DNA of 64,000 nt from positions 1 through 64,000 of the forward strand of contig JAPLRP010000090.1 of assembly GCA_026399095.1 (NCBI GenBank), written 5' to 3'. Below the pieces are notes generated by a model, which saw only the letters and a program-made list of their open reading frames with translations, was not told where the DNA came from and searched no databases. The position numbers were made by a program, and so were the translations under genes. Below, in pieces: positions 265-23,848 of the stretch. How positions within the stretch are numbered: position 1 is the stretch's first letter; the number at the start of each line of letters is the position of its first letter. This DNA is from Methylococcales bacterium. GTDB lineage: Bacteria > Pseudomonadota > Gammaproteobacteria > Methylococcales > Methylomonadaceae.

Positions 265-1766
265 TCAAGCTGTTAATTTTAATAGCTCAAATACCACCTT
301 GGCAAAACCGGCCGCCTTAACGGGATTTGCTAATAATTGCATCATCTGATTATTGTGCGCATCACCACTATCCATAATGGCATCATCAACGACTTTGCTA
401 AAATCACCAAACATGGCTTGCTCTGCCGTGTTATTGGCAATTTGTTCCATCACCAAGCCATTTTCACGAACTGTATCCTTAAACGTATTCACATAATTAA
501 CCATATCCACTTCGGTTAAATGATCGGTAATAAAAAGCTCATTCAAGCGAATGATAATCTGTGAGATAAATTCTTCCTGCTTGTCTTTTTTTTTGCGGAC
601 CCCAAACCTTCACCAGGTTCTAACCTATACTCGCCCGAATCTTCTTTTAACTGTAAATCCTGCTGACGAATTGCAGAGAGACGATAGTGACTCAACTCTA
701 CCTCACTTATATCAATATCGTCTTCTTCCGGTGACGATTCGCGTAAATGTGGTCGTAGATTTCGAGCATACAAACTCAATTTCTCCAAGTCCTTGTCGTC
801 ATAATCAATAATCTGCAACATAAACTCATAAAAGCGCACAAAGGTACCCAGATCTTTTTTAAAGATTTCCAAGCTATCCTTTTTTCTTTTTTACAGTCCT
901 TAAAACTGTTTTCAGCGTTTGCCATTAACACGGCATCGGTGGTCTTTTTGGTACGCTCGACCATGTCTTTGCTTTTCTTATAAGTATAAATAGCTGATTT
1001 GTAACGTTTTTTACAACGCTCAACGGTGGGTTTAGAAATACTGGCAATGTCGGCATTACTTTTATTTTTACAAAAAAACGCTGTGTAAAACTGTTCCACT
1101 TCTTGCCAATTAAAAATACCGCTCGTCTTTAGCTTTTCAAATAGATCAAAGATTAAATCCGGATCTGATACATCAGCCAGCTCTGCTGTTTGGTAATAAG
1201 GCTGAAAAGCATCAAGAATATCCTGTGGGTCGTTAAAAAAATCCAATACAAACGAGCCAATTTCTGCTTTACCGGGATAAGTCCGATTAAGCCGTGACAA
1301 GTTTTGTCAGACACTCCACCCCGCCCAATTTTTTATCCACATACATGCCACAGAGCTTGGGCTGATCAAAACCGGTCTGGTATTTATTGGCGACAATCAT
1401 GATTTGATATTCATCAGAATCAAAAGCCTTACATTGATCCCTGCCTTTAAGATTGGGATTCATATTGCTTTCGGTAAACTTCTCACCCAGCAAACCTACA
1501 GCATTTGGGTCTTTATCGTTAAAGTCAACCTCGCCAGAAAAGGCCACCATGGCATGAATGTTTTGGTAACCCTGCGCTTTAATATATTTATCAAAGCCTA
1601 ATTTATAACGTACCGCTTCTTTGCTGTCTTCCAATACACCTTCGAGTCGACGCAATAAGGTAAACGGCAGAATGATACGACCTTACTGACTTTTTTTAAA
1701 ATCACCACGCAGTAAATTAGCTAAGGACTAAATGAATACGGCAAGGTTGTTGGTGTTTTGGGTCAT
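265..1766 (-). pseudogene. Type I restriction-modification remnant: HsdM N-terminus fused to HsdR C-terminal half, with stops and frameshifts
   Basis: From ATG at 1764-1766 (minus) the reading is [47 protein letters not shown] (HsdM-like N-terminus), then EAVRYKLGFDKYIKAQGYQNIHAMVAFSGEV..MIVANKYQTGFDQPKLCGMYVDKKLGGVECL (HsdR-like). It continues in other frames through ORFs 776-1300, 543-872 and 265-546. Confidence 0.85.
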
Positions 1767-1859: not shown

Positions 1860-2350
1860 ACATCAATACTTTTTTTTAATTATTAAAATCAGTGGCTTAT
1901 TGATGGTTAACGGGTTTTTTTTTACGTCATAGATATTATTTTTGGTAATTTATAATATTAAGTTATCTTTCTTTATATTTTATTACTATTAGTTAGATAA
2001 CAATCTGTGAATAACCCCTTATTAAATATTTTAATCAGTGGCTTAGGTTTATTTTATAGTCGCTTGTTTACCTGTGTATAAGCGCTGTTTAAATAAACAG
2101 GAATATTAGTGTCCATTTTTATCCACATACTTGTTAACAAATTACGAGGCTTTATCCATAACGTTAACCACAAGCTATTACTTGAATTATAGGACAGCTT
2201 TAATCCCTTTCTGGCCTGTTATTTTGAGATTTTATCGGCATTCAGTGCGTTACTAATTGTGTTATTGCATCTTTGTTAATTCGAATTTACCAACACTTTT
2301 TTGTTATGTTTATAACAATTATTCTTAAATTAAGAAGGTTATCCCCAATG
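1860..2350. promoter_or_regulatory. AT-rich DnaA-box cluster; candidate replication origin or origin part
   Basis: Perfect TTATNCACA boxes at 2006-2014 (-), 2073-2081 (-) and 2119-2127 (+). One-mismatch boxes at 2152-2160, 2164-2172 and 2339-2347. Very AT-rich flank at about 1860-2000. Confidence 0.6.
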
Positions 2351-2954: not shown

Positions 2955-3067
2955 GTAAGAAAAGGTAAAATAAAGGAAAATATTAGACAATAAAAAAGGA
3001 CGTGTATCGCTACAAGCCCTTATATAGTTTATTGGTTGTTTAGCTTGGTTATTTTCCTATGCAGAAG
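2955..3067. repeat. Distal direct repeat (att-like) of the mnmE 3'-end region
   Basis: Similar in the same orientation to 5507-5638. Includes ttattttcctatgcagaag (3049-3067), 17/19 identical to the mnmE terminus ttactttcctatacagaag (5620-5638). Confidence 0.7.
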
Positions 3068-3324
3068 ATTACCTAATTAAATAAATCAATATGTTATACT
3101 TTTACAGGGGTAAATACGGGGTAAAAAGTGATACTTTTTAGTATTTTGACTAAAGAAAACTTATATTAATGGAACTACTAATATAAATAATAAACCTTAA
3201 TGCCGGCATTACCAAACACAAAAAGGCCTATATCAAACCAGTATAGTAGTGTCCCGCGAGAAATTTCAGACATAAAAAAAGCCCTTCGATAATTCGTAAG
3301 ACATTGATTCTGATGGTCTTTTAT

Positions 3325-3372
3325 GATGGGTCGTGCGCGATTCGAACGCGCGACCATCGCATTAAAAGCCCC
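3325..3372 (-). tRNA. 3' fragment of a tRNA-Lys(TTT)-like gene (partial, remnant)
   Basis: Minus strand CTTTTAATGCGATGGTCGCGCGTTCGAATCGCGCACGACCCA: anticodon loop, T-arm with 5-bp stem GCGCG/CGCGC, and 3' acceptor half. The 5' half is absent. Confidence 0.6.
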
Positions 3373-3630
3373 AGATTCACCGCTTTAAACTTCTTCTATC
3401 TCCTTATAATCAAAACGATAGCATACATAAGAGGTAGTTCCAAGTAGTGGATTGTTTTATGGAGATGCGCATTATTTGTGCACCAAAATGCGATGTTTAC
3501 CCCTAAAAGCGATGTTTAGGTATAACCTCACTCTGGCACATACCCGCTTGACTAGTGCTAGTGCGCCTAATTTTATTGCTGATCATCACATAAAACATAA
3601 TACAGATTTGCAAAACCAATCGGTCAAATT

Positions 3631-3969
3631 TTATACCAGTTCTACCAACAATTCCCCAGATGCAATTTTCTCTACAATAATCGGCAATAATCTATTAAAC
3701 CATTCCAGTAATTCTTTACGTCTAGTATTACCTACCCTTATCCAAATTAACGGCACTGGTTGCTCATCAGCGTTATGTAGGGTTACAAAATCTTCATCTT
3801 TACTGATAATAATACTTTTATTCTGCTTAGCCCATTTCCAAATATTCTGATCCGATGTTTCCATCATGTTTAAATCAGCAACATGTTTAGATTCATACCC
3901 ATGCTGCTCTAACATTCGAGCCAAGCCAATGGGTAACTGTGCATCGACTAAAAAACGCATTTTAAGCAA
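3631..3969 (-). CDS. DUF5615 family PIN-like protein (putative toxin)
   Basis: MLKMRFLVDAQLPIGLARMLEQHGYESKHVADLNMMETSDQNIWKWAKQNKSIIISKDEDF is typical of DUF5615; overlaps the upstream DUF433 gene. Confidence 0.8.
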   Translation of the reverse strand: MLKMRFLVDAQLPIGLARMLEQHGYESKHVADLNMMETSDQNIWKWAKQNKSIIISKDEDFVTLHNADEQPVPLIWIRVGNTRRKELLEWFNRLLPIIVEKIASGELLVELV

Positions 3970-4186
3970 CGCTTAGAATAGGATGATCCATCTGATGGGC
4001 TGCATACTCAAGCGATGCCTTAATGTCATCTGCTTCAAGATAGGGATAATCTTCTAAAATTTCCTCCTTACTTGCTCCCGATGCCAACATATCCAAGACA
4101 TCTTTTACTCTAATGCGCATGTTGCGAATACAAGGACGACCTCCACATATTTTAGGGTCAGTAGTAATTCTATTTAATTTAGTCAT
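3962..4186 (-). CDS. DUF433 domain protein (putative antitoxin)
   Basis: MTKLNRITTDPKICGGRPCIRNMRIRVKDVLDMLASGASKEEILEDYPYLEADDIKASLEYA matches the DUF433 pattern. Confidence 0.85.
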   Translation of the reverse strand: MTKLNRITTDPKICGGRPCIRNMRIRVKDVLDMLASGASKEEILEDYPYLEADDIKASLEYAAHQMDHPILSVA

Positions 4187-4387
4187 TTGTTTTTCTTTTT
4201 ATGAAATATTTTTCCAAAACGCAATAACCCTTGAAAAGGTTATACGGCAAAACAACCAAGTTAGTAGTATAAAGCATCTAACATTGCCGGATCATTTCTT
4301 TTTGAAATAAACCTACAAAAGCAGTCACTTGTCGTTAAATTGACACTCCGCAATTACAAGAGGTAGTCATTTAAAAAAAAGCGGTAA

Positions 4388-4419
4388 CGTACTTCGCAAA
4401 AATGCCCAAGTGAAGTACG
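4388..4419. repeat. Short perfect inverted repeat downstream of the integrase remnant
   Basis: CGTACTTC (4388-4395) / GAAGTACG (4412-4419). Confidence 0.5.
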
Positions 4420-4427
4420 CTATGTGA

Positions 4428-5456
4428 TTAAGCATAACTAAAATTATTTTGCTGTGGGTATGATGTGCCGAATATTATCGGTCCCGAATGAAAGGTGATG
4501 TGCTTACTTATACCTGCCGCCATTGCCCAGCGTAGCAATTCGATATTCATATAAGCTGAGTATCTAAGGCTCTGGAACACTCGCCCATTTTTTTCAAAAT
4601 TATTGATTAAGTTGTAAGCCTGTGGGGGGATGTCTAAATATTGGAGTTTAGTGGTTTTCTTTTGATTAAAGGTGATTCGATGAACACCATTAAACTCACT
4701 GATCTCTGACCAATCCATTTTATTAATGTCTGACCACCTAAGCCCTGTTAAGCAAGAAAATAAAAATGCCTCTTTTAATATGTCATAACGACAATCTGTT
4801 TTCACTAAAGCCCTAAGCTCATTAAGCCCCAAATAAATGCGCTCACTACTTATGGCGGTTATTCCTTTGACTTGTTTTAAGGGGTTTTTAGTGATGATCT
4901 CTTTTGAATAAGCCTCATTTATAACCGCTCTCACCTTATTAAAATAACTGGATGCTGTTCCGGAACTGATAAGGTTACCTGTCTTTGTTTTAGCTTGTGA
5001 ATCAAAATAAGTTCTAACACCATTTACCCAATCAACTGTGACTTGCTCGAATGTTAAGTTTTCATCAGGATGATAGCGCTTAAGATGGATTAAAACCGCT
5101 TGCCATAAGTCATAGTTTTTAGAGCTGGCGTTAGTCTTTTTAGTCTCCATGACCTTATTGAAGAAACTGTAAAAATTGGTGCTGATTGTATTGGCGCAGG
5201 TAAAACCATGCTGACCGCATGCTGCTTCTGCAATTCGTTTAGCTTTAATCTGCTCGGCTAATAGAAGAGTTTCTTTATTGTGCTGTTTTTCGGGTTTGCT
5301 AGATGGGTGAGTATGCAGGAATAAATCTAATTGCTCACGATTTCTATCGTGCGTGGTTTTCCCGTTTTCATCGGTGCGACTGCCATACCATTAAACTAGT
5401 CTTATTGATTGTTTATCGCCATCTTTATTGATGCGCTTCTCGATTGTAATCTTCAT
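4428..5456 (-). pseudogene. Tyrosine recombinase/phage integrase remnant
   Basis: ORF 4428-5150 carries a SAM-like core-binding region and the TGLRWSDI motif (catalytic Arg box). In-frame extension upstream to ATG 5456 (MKITIEKRINKDGDKQSIRLV*WYGSRTDENGK) contains TAA at 5391-5393. The C-terminal R-H box is not recognisable and the ORF ends early. Confidence 0.8.
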
Positions 5457-5506
5457 TGAATTTTACCCATTTTTACCCCTGCAATATTTTCTGGGGTAAT
5501 ATAGGC

Positions 5507-5638
5507 GTAAGAAAAGGTAAAGTAAAGGAAAACATAAGACAATAAAAAAGGGTGTGTATCACTACAAACCCTTATATAGTTGACTTTGTTTAGTTGTTGT
5601 TTTCGGTTGTTTTACCTTATTACTTTCCTATACAGAAG
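5507..5638. repeat. Proximal direct repeat (att-like) overlapping the mnmE 3' end
   Basis: gtaagaaaaggtaaaGtaaaggaaaAcataagacaataaaaaagg..cttatatagtt..ttactttcctatacagaag, matching 2955-3067. Confidence 0.7.
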
Positions 5639-6963
5639 CTGGAAAATATCTTTCCCAATAAATCGTCAGAGGTAAAGGTTCCGGTAATTTCTGAAAGACT
5701 CATTTGTGCTTGCCTTAAATCTTCTGCAACCAACTCACCTGCTTGGGTAATTTGTAATTGGTTTAAAGCACTTGCTACAAACTCGCAGCCTATTCTTAGA
5801 GCTTCTATGTGACGTCTTCTGGCAATAAATACGTTGTCGGTGGCTTCATTAAAACCAACACTTTGTTTGAGATGTTCTTTTAATAAGTCCATACCCTCAC
5901 CGGTTTTTATGGACAAGTAACAACTGTAGCCATTTTCTGTTTGTTTTATTTCCGGCTCTTTGCATAACAGGTCTATTTTGTTGTAAACCTTGGTTATGTC
6001 AATATTGCTCGGCAAGGTTTTTAATAACTCTTCTGTTTCAGGTTCTCTGGCATCGATAAGTAGTAATATTTTATCGGCTTTTAAAAGTTCTTCGTGTGCT
6101 CTGCGTATGCCTTCTTTTTCTATCGAATTATCACTTTCCCGTAAACCTGCGGTATCTATGATGTGTAAAGGCATGCCATCAAGCTGAATACGCTCTCTAA
6201 GCACATCTCTCGTTGTTCCTGCTATATCGGTGACTATTGCCGCTTCGTGTCCTGCCAAGGCATTCAGTAAGCTTGATTTTCCTGCATTGGGTTTTCCTGC
6301 CAAAACGACCGTCATACCATCGCGCAGTAATCGACCTTGTTGTGCTGTTTTTTGTATCTGTTGGATGCTTTGTAATAATCTAACTATGCGCTTTTCAACA
6401 ACGCCATCGGTTAGAAAATCTATTTCTTCATCAACAAAGTCTATAGCGGCTTCAACGTAAATACGAAGCTCTGTAAGTTCTGTAACCAGTTCATTGATTT
6501 GTGTAGAAAAAACACCTTGCATGGATTTTTGTGCAGAACGAGCAGATTGTTCGGTAGTACTTTCTATTAAATCAGCAACAGCTTCAGCTTGGGCCAAGTC
6601 GAGTTTATTATTTAGAAAAGCGCGTTCTGTAAATTCACCTGGATTAGCTAATCGGGCACCGAGTGAAAGCACTCGCTGTAACAGCATGTCCAATACAACC
6701 GAGCCACCATGTCCTTGCAATTCAAGTATATCCTCACCTGTATAAGAAGCAGGTGCAGGGAAATAAAGACTGATACCGGAATCAATGATGCAACCATCAT
6801 TATCTATAAATGATGTAAATAATGCGTGGCGAGGAATTAATGATTTATTGAGGAGGTGTTTGGCAATTTCAGTCACATTTGTTCCTGAAATTCGAATAAT
6901 ACCAACACCGCCATTCCCTGGCGGTGTTGCAATTGCTGCAATGGTATCTGGATTTAAAAGCAA
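5620..6963 (-). CDS. mnmE: tRNA uridine-5-carboxymethylaminomethyl modification GTPase MnmE
   Basis: G1 [27 protein letters not shown] and C-terminal IFSSFCIGK. Confidence 0.98.
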
Positions 6964-9567: not shown

Positions 9568-10884
9568 ATGAGTTCTATTTGGAATAACTGTCTTACAAAA
9601 CTTGAAGCTGAAATTGCCAGTTCAGATTTCAGTACATGGATTCGGCCTTTACAAGCCATAGAAAGTGTTGGACAAATAAAATTATTAGCCCCCAACCGAT
9701 TCGTTTTAGACTGGGTTAAGCAACATTTTTTTGTAAAAATCAAAGAATCTATTCATGAATTTTCAAACGGTACATGTGAACTAAGTCTTGAGATTGGCTC
9801 TAAAAAAACAATAACACCTACTGTTTCAAGTAGCATCAAATCAATTGAAATTAAAAAAACCAATCCTAATTTTCTTAATAAAGCATTTACTTTTGAAAAC
9901 TTTGTTGAAGGTAAATCTAATCAGCTTGCCAGAGCAGCTTCTCTTCAGGTATCTGAAAATATAGGAAAAGCTTACAATCCTTTACTAATCTACGGTAGTT
10001 CGGGTTTGGGTAAAACTCATCTTATGCATGCAATTGGTAATGCTGTGTTTAAAAAAAATCCTTCGGCAACTATTGTTTATTTGCACTCAGAAAAATTTGT
10101 ACAGGATATGGTTAGAGCATTACAGCAAAATTCAATTAATGCATTTAAAGAATATTACCGTGGTATAGATGTACTTTTAATTGATGATATTCAGTTTTTT
10201 GCCGGTAAAGAACGATCTCAGGAAGAATTTTTTCATACATTTAATACTTTATTAGATAAAAAACACCAAATTGTTTTGACTTGTGATAAATATCCTAAAG
10301 AAATTGTTGGTCTTGAAGACCGCTTAAAATCAAGATTTGGATGCGGTCTTCCTGTATCAATTGAACCACCTGATATGGAAACAAGAGCTGCTATTTTAAT
10401 GAAAAAAGCTACTCAGGTTAATGTCGAACTTCCTCAAGAAGTTGCTTTTTTTATTGCTAAAAAAATTCCCTTCAATGTTCGTGATCTTGAAGGTGCTTTA
10501 AGAAGAGTTATTGCTAATGCTCAATTTACCGGGCGTGAAATTACTATTGAATTTACAAAAGAAGCTCTACATGATTTGATTTCGTTAAAAGATAAACTGG
10601 TCAATATGGACAATATTCAAAAAATTGTTGCTGAATATTTTAAGATTCGTGTTGTCGATTTATCATCTAAGTCGAGAAAACAAACCATCACTCGCCCTCG
10701 CCAAATGGCTATGTGTTTAGCTCGAGAGTTAACGTCTCATAGTTTCCCTGAAATTGGAGATGCGTTTGGTGGTCGTGACCACACAACTGTAATGAATGCT
10801 TGTAAAAAAATAAACGAACTGAAAGAAGCAGATCATAAAATAGCAGAAGACTACTCTAATCTCTTAAGAACACTCTCTCATTAA
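9568..10884 (+). CDS. dnaA: Chromosomal replication initiator DnaA
   Basis: AAA+ [19 protein letters not shown]-terminal [15 protein letters not shown]. Confidence 0.99.
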
Positions 10885-10926
10885 GTTAATTCTGTACTCT
10901 ATTTTCCGTACACTTTATTAATTGTT

Positions 10927-11090
10927 TGTGGATAAAAAACTGGTTAACTCAATGATTGCTGGGGATATTGTTGTGTATACAAAATTACGTTTATTTAAAA
11001 TTAAGTTTAGACAATGGTTATCCACAACCTAATGCTCAACTAAAATAATTGTAGTTTATTGAAATATATCAATATATGAGGTTATCAACA
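10927..11090. promoter_or_regulatory. DnaA-box cluster in the dnaA-dnaN intergenic region
   Basis: Perfect boxes at 10927-10935 (-, TGTGGATAA) and 11018-11026 (+, TTATCCACA); one-mismatch boxes at 10972-10980 and 11082-11090. Confidence 0.75.
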
Positions 11091-11200
11091 GAAATTAGGT
11101 ATACTAATAGTAATAAATAAAAGGAATTAAGTATATATTATTAACAAACCAAATAAGCCTTCTTTCAGTTTTTAAAACTAACTGTAAAAATATAAAACAG

Positions 11201-22509: not shown

Positions 22510-23510
22510 GGTACAGCAATCCTGGAAATAAGTTCTTTAATAAAATGATCGGTAGTAATGCCTTCTGCTTCAGCTTCATAAGATAAAATAAGGCGATGCC
22601 TCAATACATCAAAAGCCATTTCCTGAATGTCTTCCGGGCCTACAAAGTCTCGTTGCGATAACCAAGCTTTAGCTCTTGAGCAGCGATCAAGAGCTATACT
22701 GGCTCTTGGACTGGCTCCATATTGCAACCATGAAGCTAGGTCTGATCCATAAGCCGAGGGATTACGAGTAGCGAGGATTATTTGTAGTAAATAATCTTCA
22801 AGACCTTCGGTCATGTATATATCAAGTACTTCATTACGCGCATCAAATAAGGTACTTTGACTAATCGGTTCAAATTTATTAGAGCTTTTTGTTGATTCTG
22901 AACGTGCCTCGGATCTTGCCAGATGCAGAATGCTTTTTTCATGCTCAGCTTTGGGATAATCCACTTTTACATGCAGTAAAAAACGATCCAGTTGTGCTTC
23001 AGGTAAAGGATAGGTTCCTTCCTGTTCAATAGGGTTTTGAGTGGCCATTACCATAAATAATTTTGGTAAAGGATAAGTAGCCTGCCCCACTGTTATTTGT
23101 CTCTCAGCCATTGCTTCCAATAACGCAGCTTGAACTTTGGCCGGTGAGCGGTTAATTTCATCAGCCAATATTAGATTATGAAACAAAGGTCCTTTTTGAA
23201 ATTCAAACGTGCCTTGTTGAGGTCGATAAATCTCCGTTCCTGTTAAATCTGCAGGCAATAAATCAGGGGTGAACTGTACGCGATGAAAATCACCCTGAAT
23301 ACCTTTACTTAACACATTAATGGCTCTGGTTTTGGCAAGCCCCGGCGCGCCTTCAACCAGAATATGACCATCGGCCAACAAGCCAATAAGCATCCTTTCA
23401 ACAAGGATATCCTGACCAATAATTTCCTGATTAATGTAATTTTTTAAACTAATTAACAGGGTTTGAGATGAAGCTTTAGAGAGATTTTGTTTGCTGTTAT
23501 GTTCTGACAT
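22506..23510 (-). CDS. MoxR family AAA+ ATPase
   Basis: GHILVEGAPGLAKTRAI, LADEINRSPAKVQAALLEAMAERQITVG, ATQNPIEQEGTYPLPEAQLDRF. Confidence 0.97.
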   Translation of the reverse strand: MSEHNSKQNLSKASSQTLLISLKNYINQEIIGQDILVERMLIGLLADGHILVEGAPGLAKTRAINVLSKGIQGDFHRVQFTPDLLPADLTGTEIYRPQQGTFEFQKGPLFHNLILADEINRSPAKVQAALLEAMAERQITVGQATYPLPKLFMVMATQNPIEQEGTYPLPEAQLDRFLLHVKVDYPKAEHEKSILHLARSEARSESTKSSNKFEPISQSTLFDARNEVLDIYMTEGLEDYLLQIILATRNPSAYGSDLASWLQYGASPRASIALDRCSRAKAWLSQRDFVGPEDIQEMAFDVLRHRLILSYEAEAEGITTDHFIKELISRIAVP

Positions 23511-23652
23511 GATATGAGTTATATTTAATCCATAGTATAAAAGCGATACATCCAGTTAACTTGACGTATATTATTCCGATAACCCTTAAGTGATAAACTT
23601 ACAATACCATTAGGTTGCCGCGTAATGTTATAAACAATCTTTTTACTAAAAG

Positions 23653-23687
23653 GTTCCCTATTCTAACCGGATATGAGTTTAGGGAAC
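23653..23687. repeat. Inverted repeat in the moxR-POT transporter divergent intergenic region
   Basis: GTTCCCTA (23653-23660) ... TAGGGAAC (23680-23687). Confidence 0.55.
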
Positions 23688-23848
23688 ATAATGTTATTGT
23701 TAAATTGTCTTAAATTAAGTATGTAAAATTATAACCATATAAATGAGTAGATTTCATAGTCTATTGATTGATGTCCAAAAAAAAGGCTGTGCAAATAATT
23801 TTATTGCCAGAATCATGAACAAAAATTATTTTTAATAAAAAAAGATAA

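Follow-up and report, generated by a model that had tools for sequence, protein, structure and literature searches.

A probable second copy of the chromosomal oriC module in a mobile-element hotspot downstream of mnmE in a Methylobacter-type bacterium

The stretch of DNA analysed here (the window) comprises positions 1-64,000 of a 73.5-kb contig from the draft genome (2.77 Mb, 94 contigs) of a methane-eating Methylobacter-type bacterium. By comparison of MnmE, its nearest named relatives are Methylobacter and unnamed Methylococcaceae (M. psychrophilus Z-0021, 93%; Methylobacter sp. KS41, 89%). The dnaA gene (9568-10884, plus strand; assigned from the ORF list and synteny) is followed rightward by dnaN, recF and gyrB. 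Leftward of dnaA lie rpmH, rnpA, yidD, yidC and mnmE on the minus strand, the last at 5620-6963 (from the ORF list, with orthologues in 80 loci). The subject of this study is a cluster of DnaA boxes at 1860-2350, approximately 3.4 kb from the mnmE stop codon, 9 kb from the dnaA-dnaN gap and, in this fragmented draft, 2 kb from a contig end.

Repeat comparison revealed that the last 18 bases of mnmE (5620-5637, minus strand) form an att-like site, TTCTGTATAGGAAAGTAA, with a second copy, TTCTGCATAGGAAAATAA, at 3049-3066 (minus strand) at the end of a 2.6-kb element remnant. Between the att copies (3049-5637) are a DUF5615/DUF433 gene pair and the remnant of a tyrosine integrase (4416-5456, minus strand; Pfam Phage_int_SAM_5 and Phage_integrase), which is broken by two in-frame stops and shares 71% identity with the integrase of a related genome, G008. 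The 3′ end of mnmE thus carries an att repeat and adjoins a tyrosine integrase, but the box cluster lies outside the att pair, beyond the bounded element. To its left are the frameshifted and truncated remains of hsdR (type I restriction subunit R; 265-1655, minus strand), recognised from ORF pieces and, for one piece, a T1R_D3-like Pfam match. Over 265-1740 the gene is split into several frames, in part at homopolymer runs, an arrangement that both decay and assembly error would fit. Moreover, three copies of a hairpin were found (2372-2404, approximately 2990-3020 and 5544-5573), which in relatives marks the left end of mnmE-integrated elements; this suggests stacked insertions. A first-pass annotation of this DNA had read the cluster as an alternative or bipartite oriC, on the grounds that many gammaproteobacterial origins lie in the mnmE-mnmG neighbourhood. 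That rationale does not apply here, as mnmG is absent from the vicinity of mnmE and the cluster, next to a decayed hsdR, is separated from mnmE by an integrative element inserted at the 3′ end of that gene.

The boxes themselves are as the first-pass annotation described them. Three perfect TTATNCACA boxes were recovered, namely box 1 (TTATTCACA, 2006-2014, minus strand), box 2 (TTATACACA, 2073-2081, minus strand) and box 3 (TTATCCACA, 2119-2127, plus strand), together with one-mismatch boxes, all on the plus strand, at 2152-2160 (box 5, TTATCCATA), 2164-2172 (box 6, TTAACCACA) and 2339-2347 (TTATCCCCA); a fourth one-mismatch box, at 2307-2315, had been missed. The stretch is indeed AT-rich (27.5% GC), and no ORF of at least 60 aa is present in 1656-2474. 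There are 122 perfect boxes in the whole 2.77-Mb genome, giving an expectation of about 0.005 per 122 bp, and the three found here within 122 bp are far in excess of it, forming the sole such cluster among the matches listed (100 of the 122 sites). This is also the densest 350 bp of the window for boxes with at most one mismatch (7, against 5 at dnaA-dnaN). Across the window, 8 perfect boxes were observed where 4 are expected, a number reached in 6 of 100 shuffles. Such window-wide counts are weak evidence by themselves; what is decisive is homology to oriC.

When the region was compared by blastn with 61 related genomes, matches of approximately 72% identity (71-73%) over about 190 bp were obtained, with E values down to 1e-20; mapping by reference to mnmE places them between dnaA and dnaN in the relatives. 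A profile, R1, was built from an alignment of 27 relatives' dnaA-dnaN modules, leaving out the window and all ectopic rows. Searched against the window with filters off, R1 matched 1934-2179 on the plus strand (96.7 bits, E 4.4e-29), above the window's own dnaA-dnaN copy on the minus strand (90.5 bits), with the next match, at 19 bits, being the start of dnaN. The same two sites lead genome-wide, the ectopic copy again being the best match (98.7 bits) ahead of the canonical module in the dnaA-dnaN gap (about 10919-11157, minus strand; 90.5 bits, E 1.6e-25). The homology spans the whole module of approximately 245 bp, and direct alignment shows the ectopic module (about 1940-2178, plus strand) to be inverted with respect to the canonical one. 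The first-pass observation of box clusters at both places, about 9 kb apart, holds, and the module carrying the boxes is homologous to the relatives' dnaA-dnaN oriC. This homology rules out a chance cluster of boxes.

Four DnaA-trios, a trio-proximal box, an IHF-like site and flanking boxes are all in register with the relatives. On the AT-rich side, the trios TAA TAG TAA TAA are read on the minus strand as CTAATAGTAATAA (1992 to 1980), and the trio block TTATTActATTAg is kept in all copy classes. Box 1 adjoins the trios with a spacing of 14 nt; for the basal unwinding system, from which the definition of trios near a box is taken, published box-trio spacers are commonest at 10-13, in a search that allowed up to 16 (PMC8287927). 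Boxes 1, 2, 3, 5 and 6 all fall in the R1 match, with a TGTTTAAATAA block between boxes 2 and 3, whilst boxes 4-6 are degenerate and the one-mismatch box at 2339-2347 is not part of the homologous module. The IHF-like site, AATCAGTGGCTTA (2033-2045, plus strand), has one mismatch to the IHF consensus WATCAANNNNTTR, by which alone it was assigned, and is aligned with a TCAAT..nTTa block that is conserved in the relatives.

The canonical copy of the window has its trios, a box 1 of TTATCAACA, an IHF-like block with two mismatches and two perfect boxes, against three in the ectopic copy. On a tree of the modules (226 columns, with many open forks, of which only starred groups were used), the end branch of the ectopic copy is 0.28 and that of the canonical copy 0.44. 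The shorter branch and greater number of perfect boxes are mildly unlike what a decaying duplicate would be expected to give, one pair of branches being no test.

Two other identities for the region were tried and rejected: a non-coding RNA, as a search of 1700-2500 against Rfam gave no match, and a plasmid or phage origin, as plasmid and phage records gave no meaningful match, the one hit being of 46 bp within a Cytobacillus gene. Homology and register together point very strongly to the cluster being a displaced second copy of the chromosome's oriC module, in inverted orientation and lodged in a mobile-element hotspot on the downstream side of mnmE.

Cumulative GC skew bears on which copy is the origin. 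Calculated over local stretches, with a resolution of a few kb and gene orientation as a confounder, it reaches its minimum at 9,993, within dnaA, and its sign between the ectopic module and dnaA is that expected of an origin at dnaA-dnaN. The ectopic module does not, then, lie at the skew switch, and the proposal of a second oriC stands only in part: the module is of oriC type, homologous both to the relatives' origins and to the host's own, but the skew minimum that had been put forward as its check is at dnaA and not at the cluster. Because of where that minimum lies, the dnaA-dnaN gap is probably still the main long-term origin. Amongst relatives, the minimum is at dnaA-dnaN in G019 and at a second module, upstream of moxR (see below), in G068; the skew between modules is near-flat and gene orientation again confounds it.

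Comparable second modules occur in related genomes, namely those of Methylobacter sp. KS41 (L059), the L061 bin, G017 (L044), M. psychrophilus (L055), G019 (L168), G008 (L184) and G003. Their settings differ. In M. psychrophilus, G019 and G008 the module lies 157, 145 and 120 bp, respectively, inside the distal att repeat of an mnmE element. The KS41 module comes straight after mnmE, where no integrase is present, that of the L061 bin comes after the remnant of an integrase, that of G017 lies 2.4 kb beyond an att copy, and that of G003 sits amid unrelated chromosomal genes, 38 kb from dnaA-dnaN. The copies in the window, KS41 and L061 are on the same side of mnmE in the same orientation. We do not claim them as orthologues by position, because their flanks share no homology past the module and the tree offers no support. 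Some relatives (L054:4934-6042, L055:4983-6036, L033:4168-5343, L168:405-1410 in G019, and L036) carry two or three tandem modules in the dnaA-dnaN gap, where the window has one.

The element-borne modules raise the question of whether mnmE-targeting elements take up oriC copies as cargo and rely on the host's DnaA for replication, or for persistence once excised. The three modules just inside a distal att would fit this, as would the G008 module (L184:5473-5694), which is sister to the dnaA-dnaN module of its own host (support 100/94), a placement that capture from the host predicts and that suggests a recent event of this kind. The window module, though, is outside the only att-bounded element there (3049-5637), with no distal att found; the G017 module is likewise beyond its att copy and that of KS41 is without an integrase. 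Moreover, the mnmE elements at L109 and L091 contain no oriC module, a scan of viral contigs for the G008-type integrase yielded a single contig (L215) that also lacks one, and plasmid and phage records gave nothing meaningful. Element cargo is an unlikely account of the window copy.

The same survey bears on the idea that the copy is a relic, caught in the mnmE hotspot, now functionless and turning over. At least three independent gains of ectopic copies are forced on the tree within the window's genus, their places and orientation vary, and the copies in M. psychrophilus and G019 are shortened (44 bits). The second copy is also absent from some complete relatives: G006, G012 and G022, all well assembled and of the window's genus, have the dnaA-dnaN module alone, so that a second module is not essential in them. 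The broken integrase and hsdR fragments around the window copy would suit a relic too. Against this, the window copy is preserved at least as well as the canonical one, and we regard the relic reading as improbable.

Beyond the genus, R1 matches were found in 92 of 121 related genomes, a count that depends on assembly completeness. In at least 10 genera outside the window's own, a second module is present in the gap upstream of moxR, adjoining a POT transporter or SDR gene (L169-L173, L175, L178-L182, L197, L201 and the loci of M. tundripaludum, M. marinus and M. luteus; for example L082:17622-17855, L110:19057-19245, L171:12954-13158 and L181:10572-10810). These modules keep TTAnTATTA (trios), CTGTnGATAAG (box 1), ATCAAnnnnTTa (IHF-like) and a TGTGGATAA box. 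They group on the tree with 2 label changes, and a single clade was not rejected (p 0.50). The moxR module is an older second copy, separate from the ectopic class of the window. The window's own moxR-POT gap (23493-23848) contains no module by R1 search, and its moxR block is on the opposite side of dnaA from that of the other genera. A further oriC-like module in G084 (L177:7841-8034) has no dnaA, dnaN, mnmE or moxR within approximately 6 kb and lies about 40 kb from that genome's own moxR module. Among open-licence papers we found no report of oriC copies at moxR or mnmE, which is not proof that none exists.

What might the ectopic module do? DnaA is predicted to bind its boxes 1-3 and IHF to bend the DNA, whilst a DnaA oligomer on the trios could open the AT-rich side. 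Were this so, the site could serve as an auxiliary origin or, at a minimum, as a place where an orisome assembles, with dnaA-dnaN most likely remaining the main start. That the module has retained origin capability is, taken singly, a proposition to which we give slightly less than an even chance; the combined reading, an oriC duplicate that has kept such capability, is the one towards which we lean, if only a little. A copy of oriC could alternatively have become a titration or regulating locus, binding DnaA near the origin and tuning the timing of initiation without firing. In favour of this are the grouping of boxes and an IHF-like site at a distance of 9 kb from oriC, the position of most second copies in the family 2-40 kb from dnaA-dnaN, and a skew that speaks for initiation in the dnaA-dnaN gap. 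Known loci of this kind, datA and the B. subtilis clusters, are also near oriC and lose their function when moved to the terminus (PMC5010248). Titration alone, though, needs neither the trios nor the trio-proximal box, both of which are kept in the ectopic and moxR classes, and we consider it rather unlikely, if the most credible of the alternatives.

Bacteria are generally taken to have a single origin on each chromosome. It is conceivable, although we would not expect it, that methanotrophs of this family carry two DnaA-dependent origins per chromosome with initiation at either, an ancient moxR module having been kept in many genera and lost at least once in the window's genus, with mnmE-side copies in its stead. 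A family that keeps a duplicated oriC module at a conserved second locus in many genera, and has regained one near mnmE in another, brings the two-origin question within reach of cultured strains (for example M. marinus A45, M. luteus, M. tundripaludum and M. psychrophilus), and might serve as a natural experiment on whether two usable origins can be maintained on a single bacterial chromosome. Copies that do not fire would form a natural series from origin copy to DnaA-control locus or decay.

Several known systems resemble this arrangement in part. In the bipartite oriC of B. subtilis and H. pylori, two complementary parts make up one orisome. There, too, two box clusters lie near dnaA, but they form a single origin around that gene, whereas here there are full sets 9 kb apart; since trios and boxes are present in both copies, "duplicated" fits better than the "bipartite" of the first-pass annotation. 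Pseudomonas aeruginosa has two autonomously replicating origins, and double oriCs have been put forward for Dehalobacter, Ralstonia and Ochrobactrum (PMC4403523); these likewise have two oriC-like regions per chromosome, one of them in a genomic island in Dehalobacter. The present case differs in that the two are sequence paralogues of one module and that second copies recur across the family. SGI1-type islands integrate at the 3′ end of trmE (= mnmE) (PMC8409611) and share with the window element this target and a tyrosine integrase beside mnmE; the window element, likened to them by its target and integrase, is a remnant. The box-spacer-trio layout of the ectopic copy is the same as that of the basal unwinding system (PMC8287927). 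datA, DARS and the B. subtilis DnaA-box clusters also place DnaA boxes (with IHF in E. coli) near but outside oriC, yet they need no unwinding element, whilst the cluster described here keeps its DnaA-trios and is a paralogue of oriC. With the relatives' dnaA-dnaN oriC the cluster shares the module of about 245 bp, with trios, box 1, IHF-like site, box 2 and the three-prime boxes; it differs in its inverted orientation, in its position 9 kb off in a mobile-element hotspot on the downstream side of mnmE, in having no dnaA adjoining and in the degenerate state of boxes 4-6.
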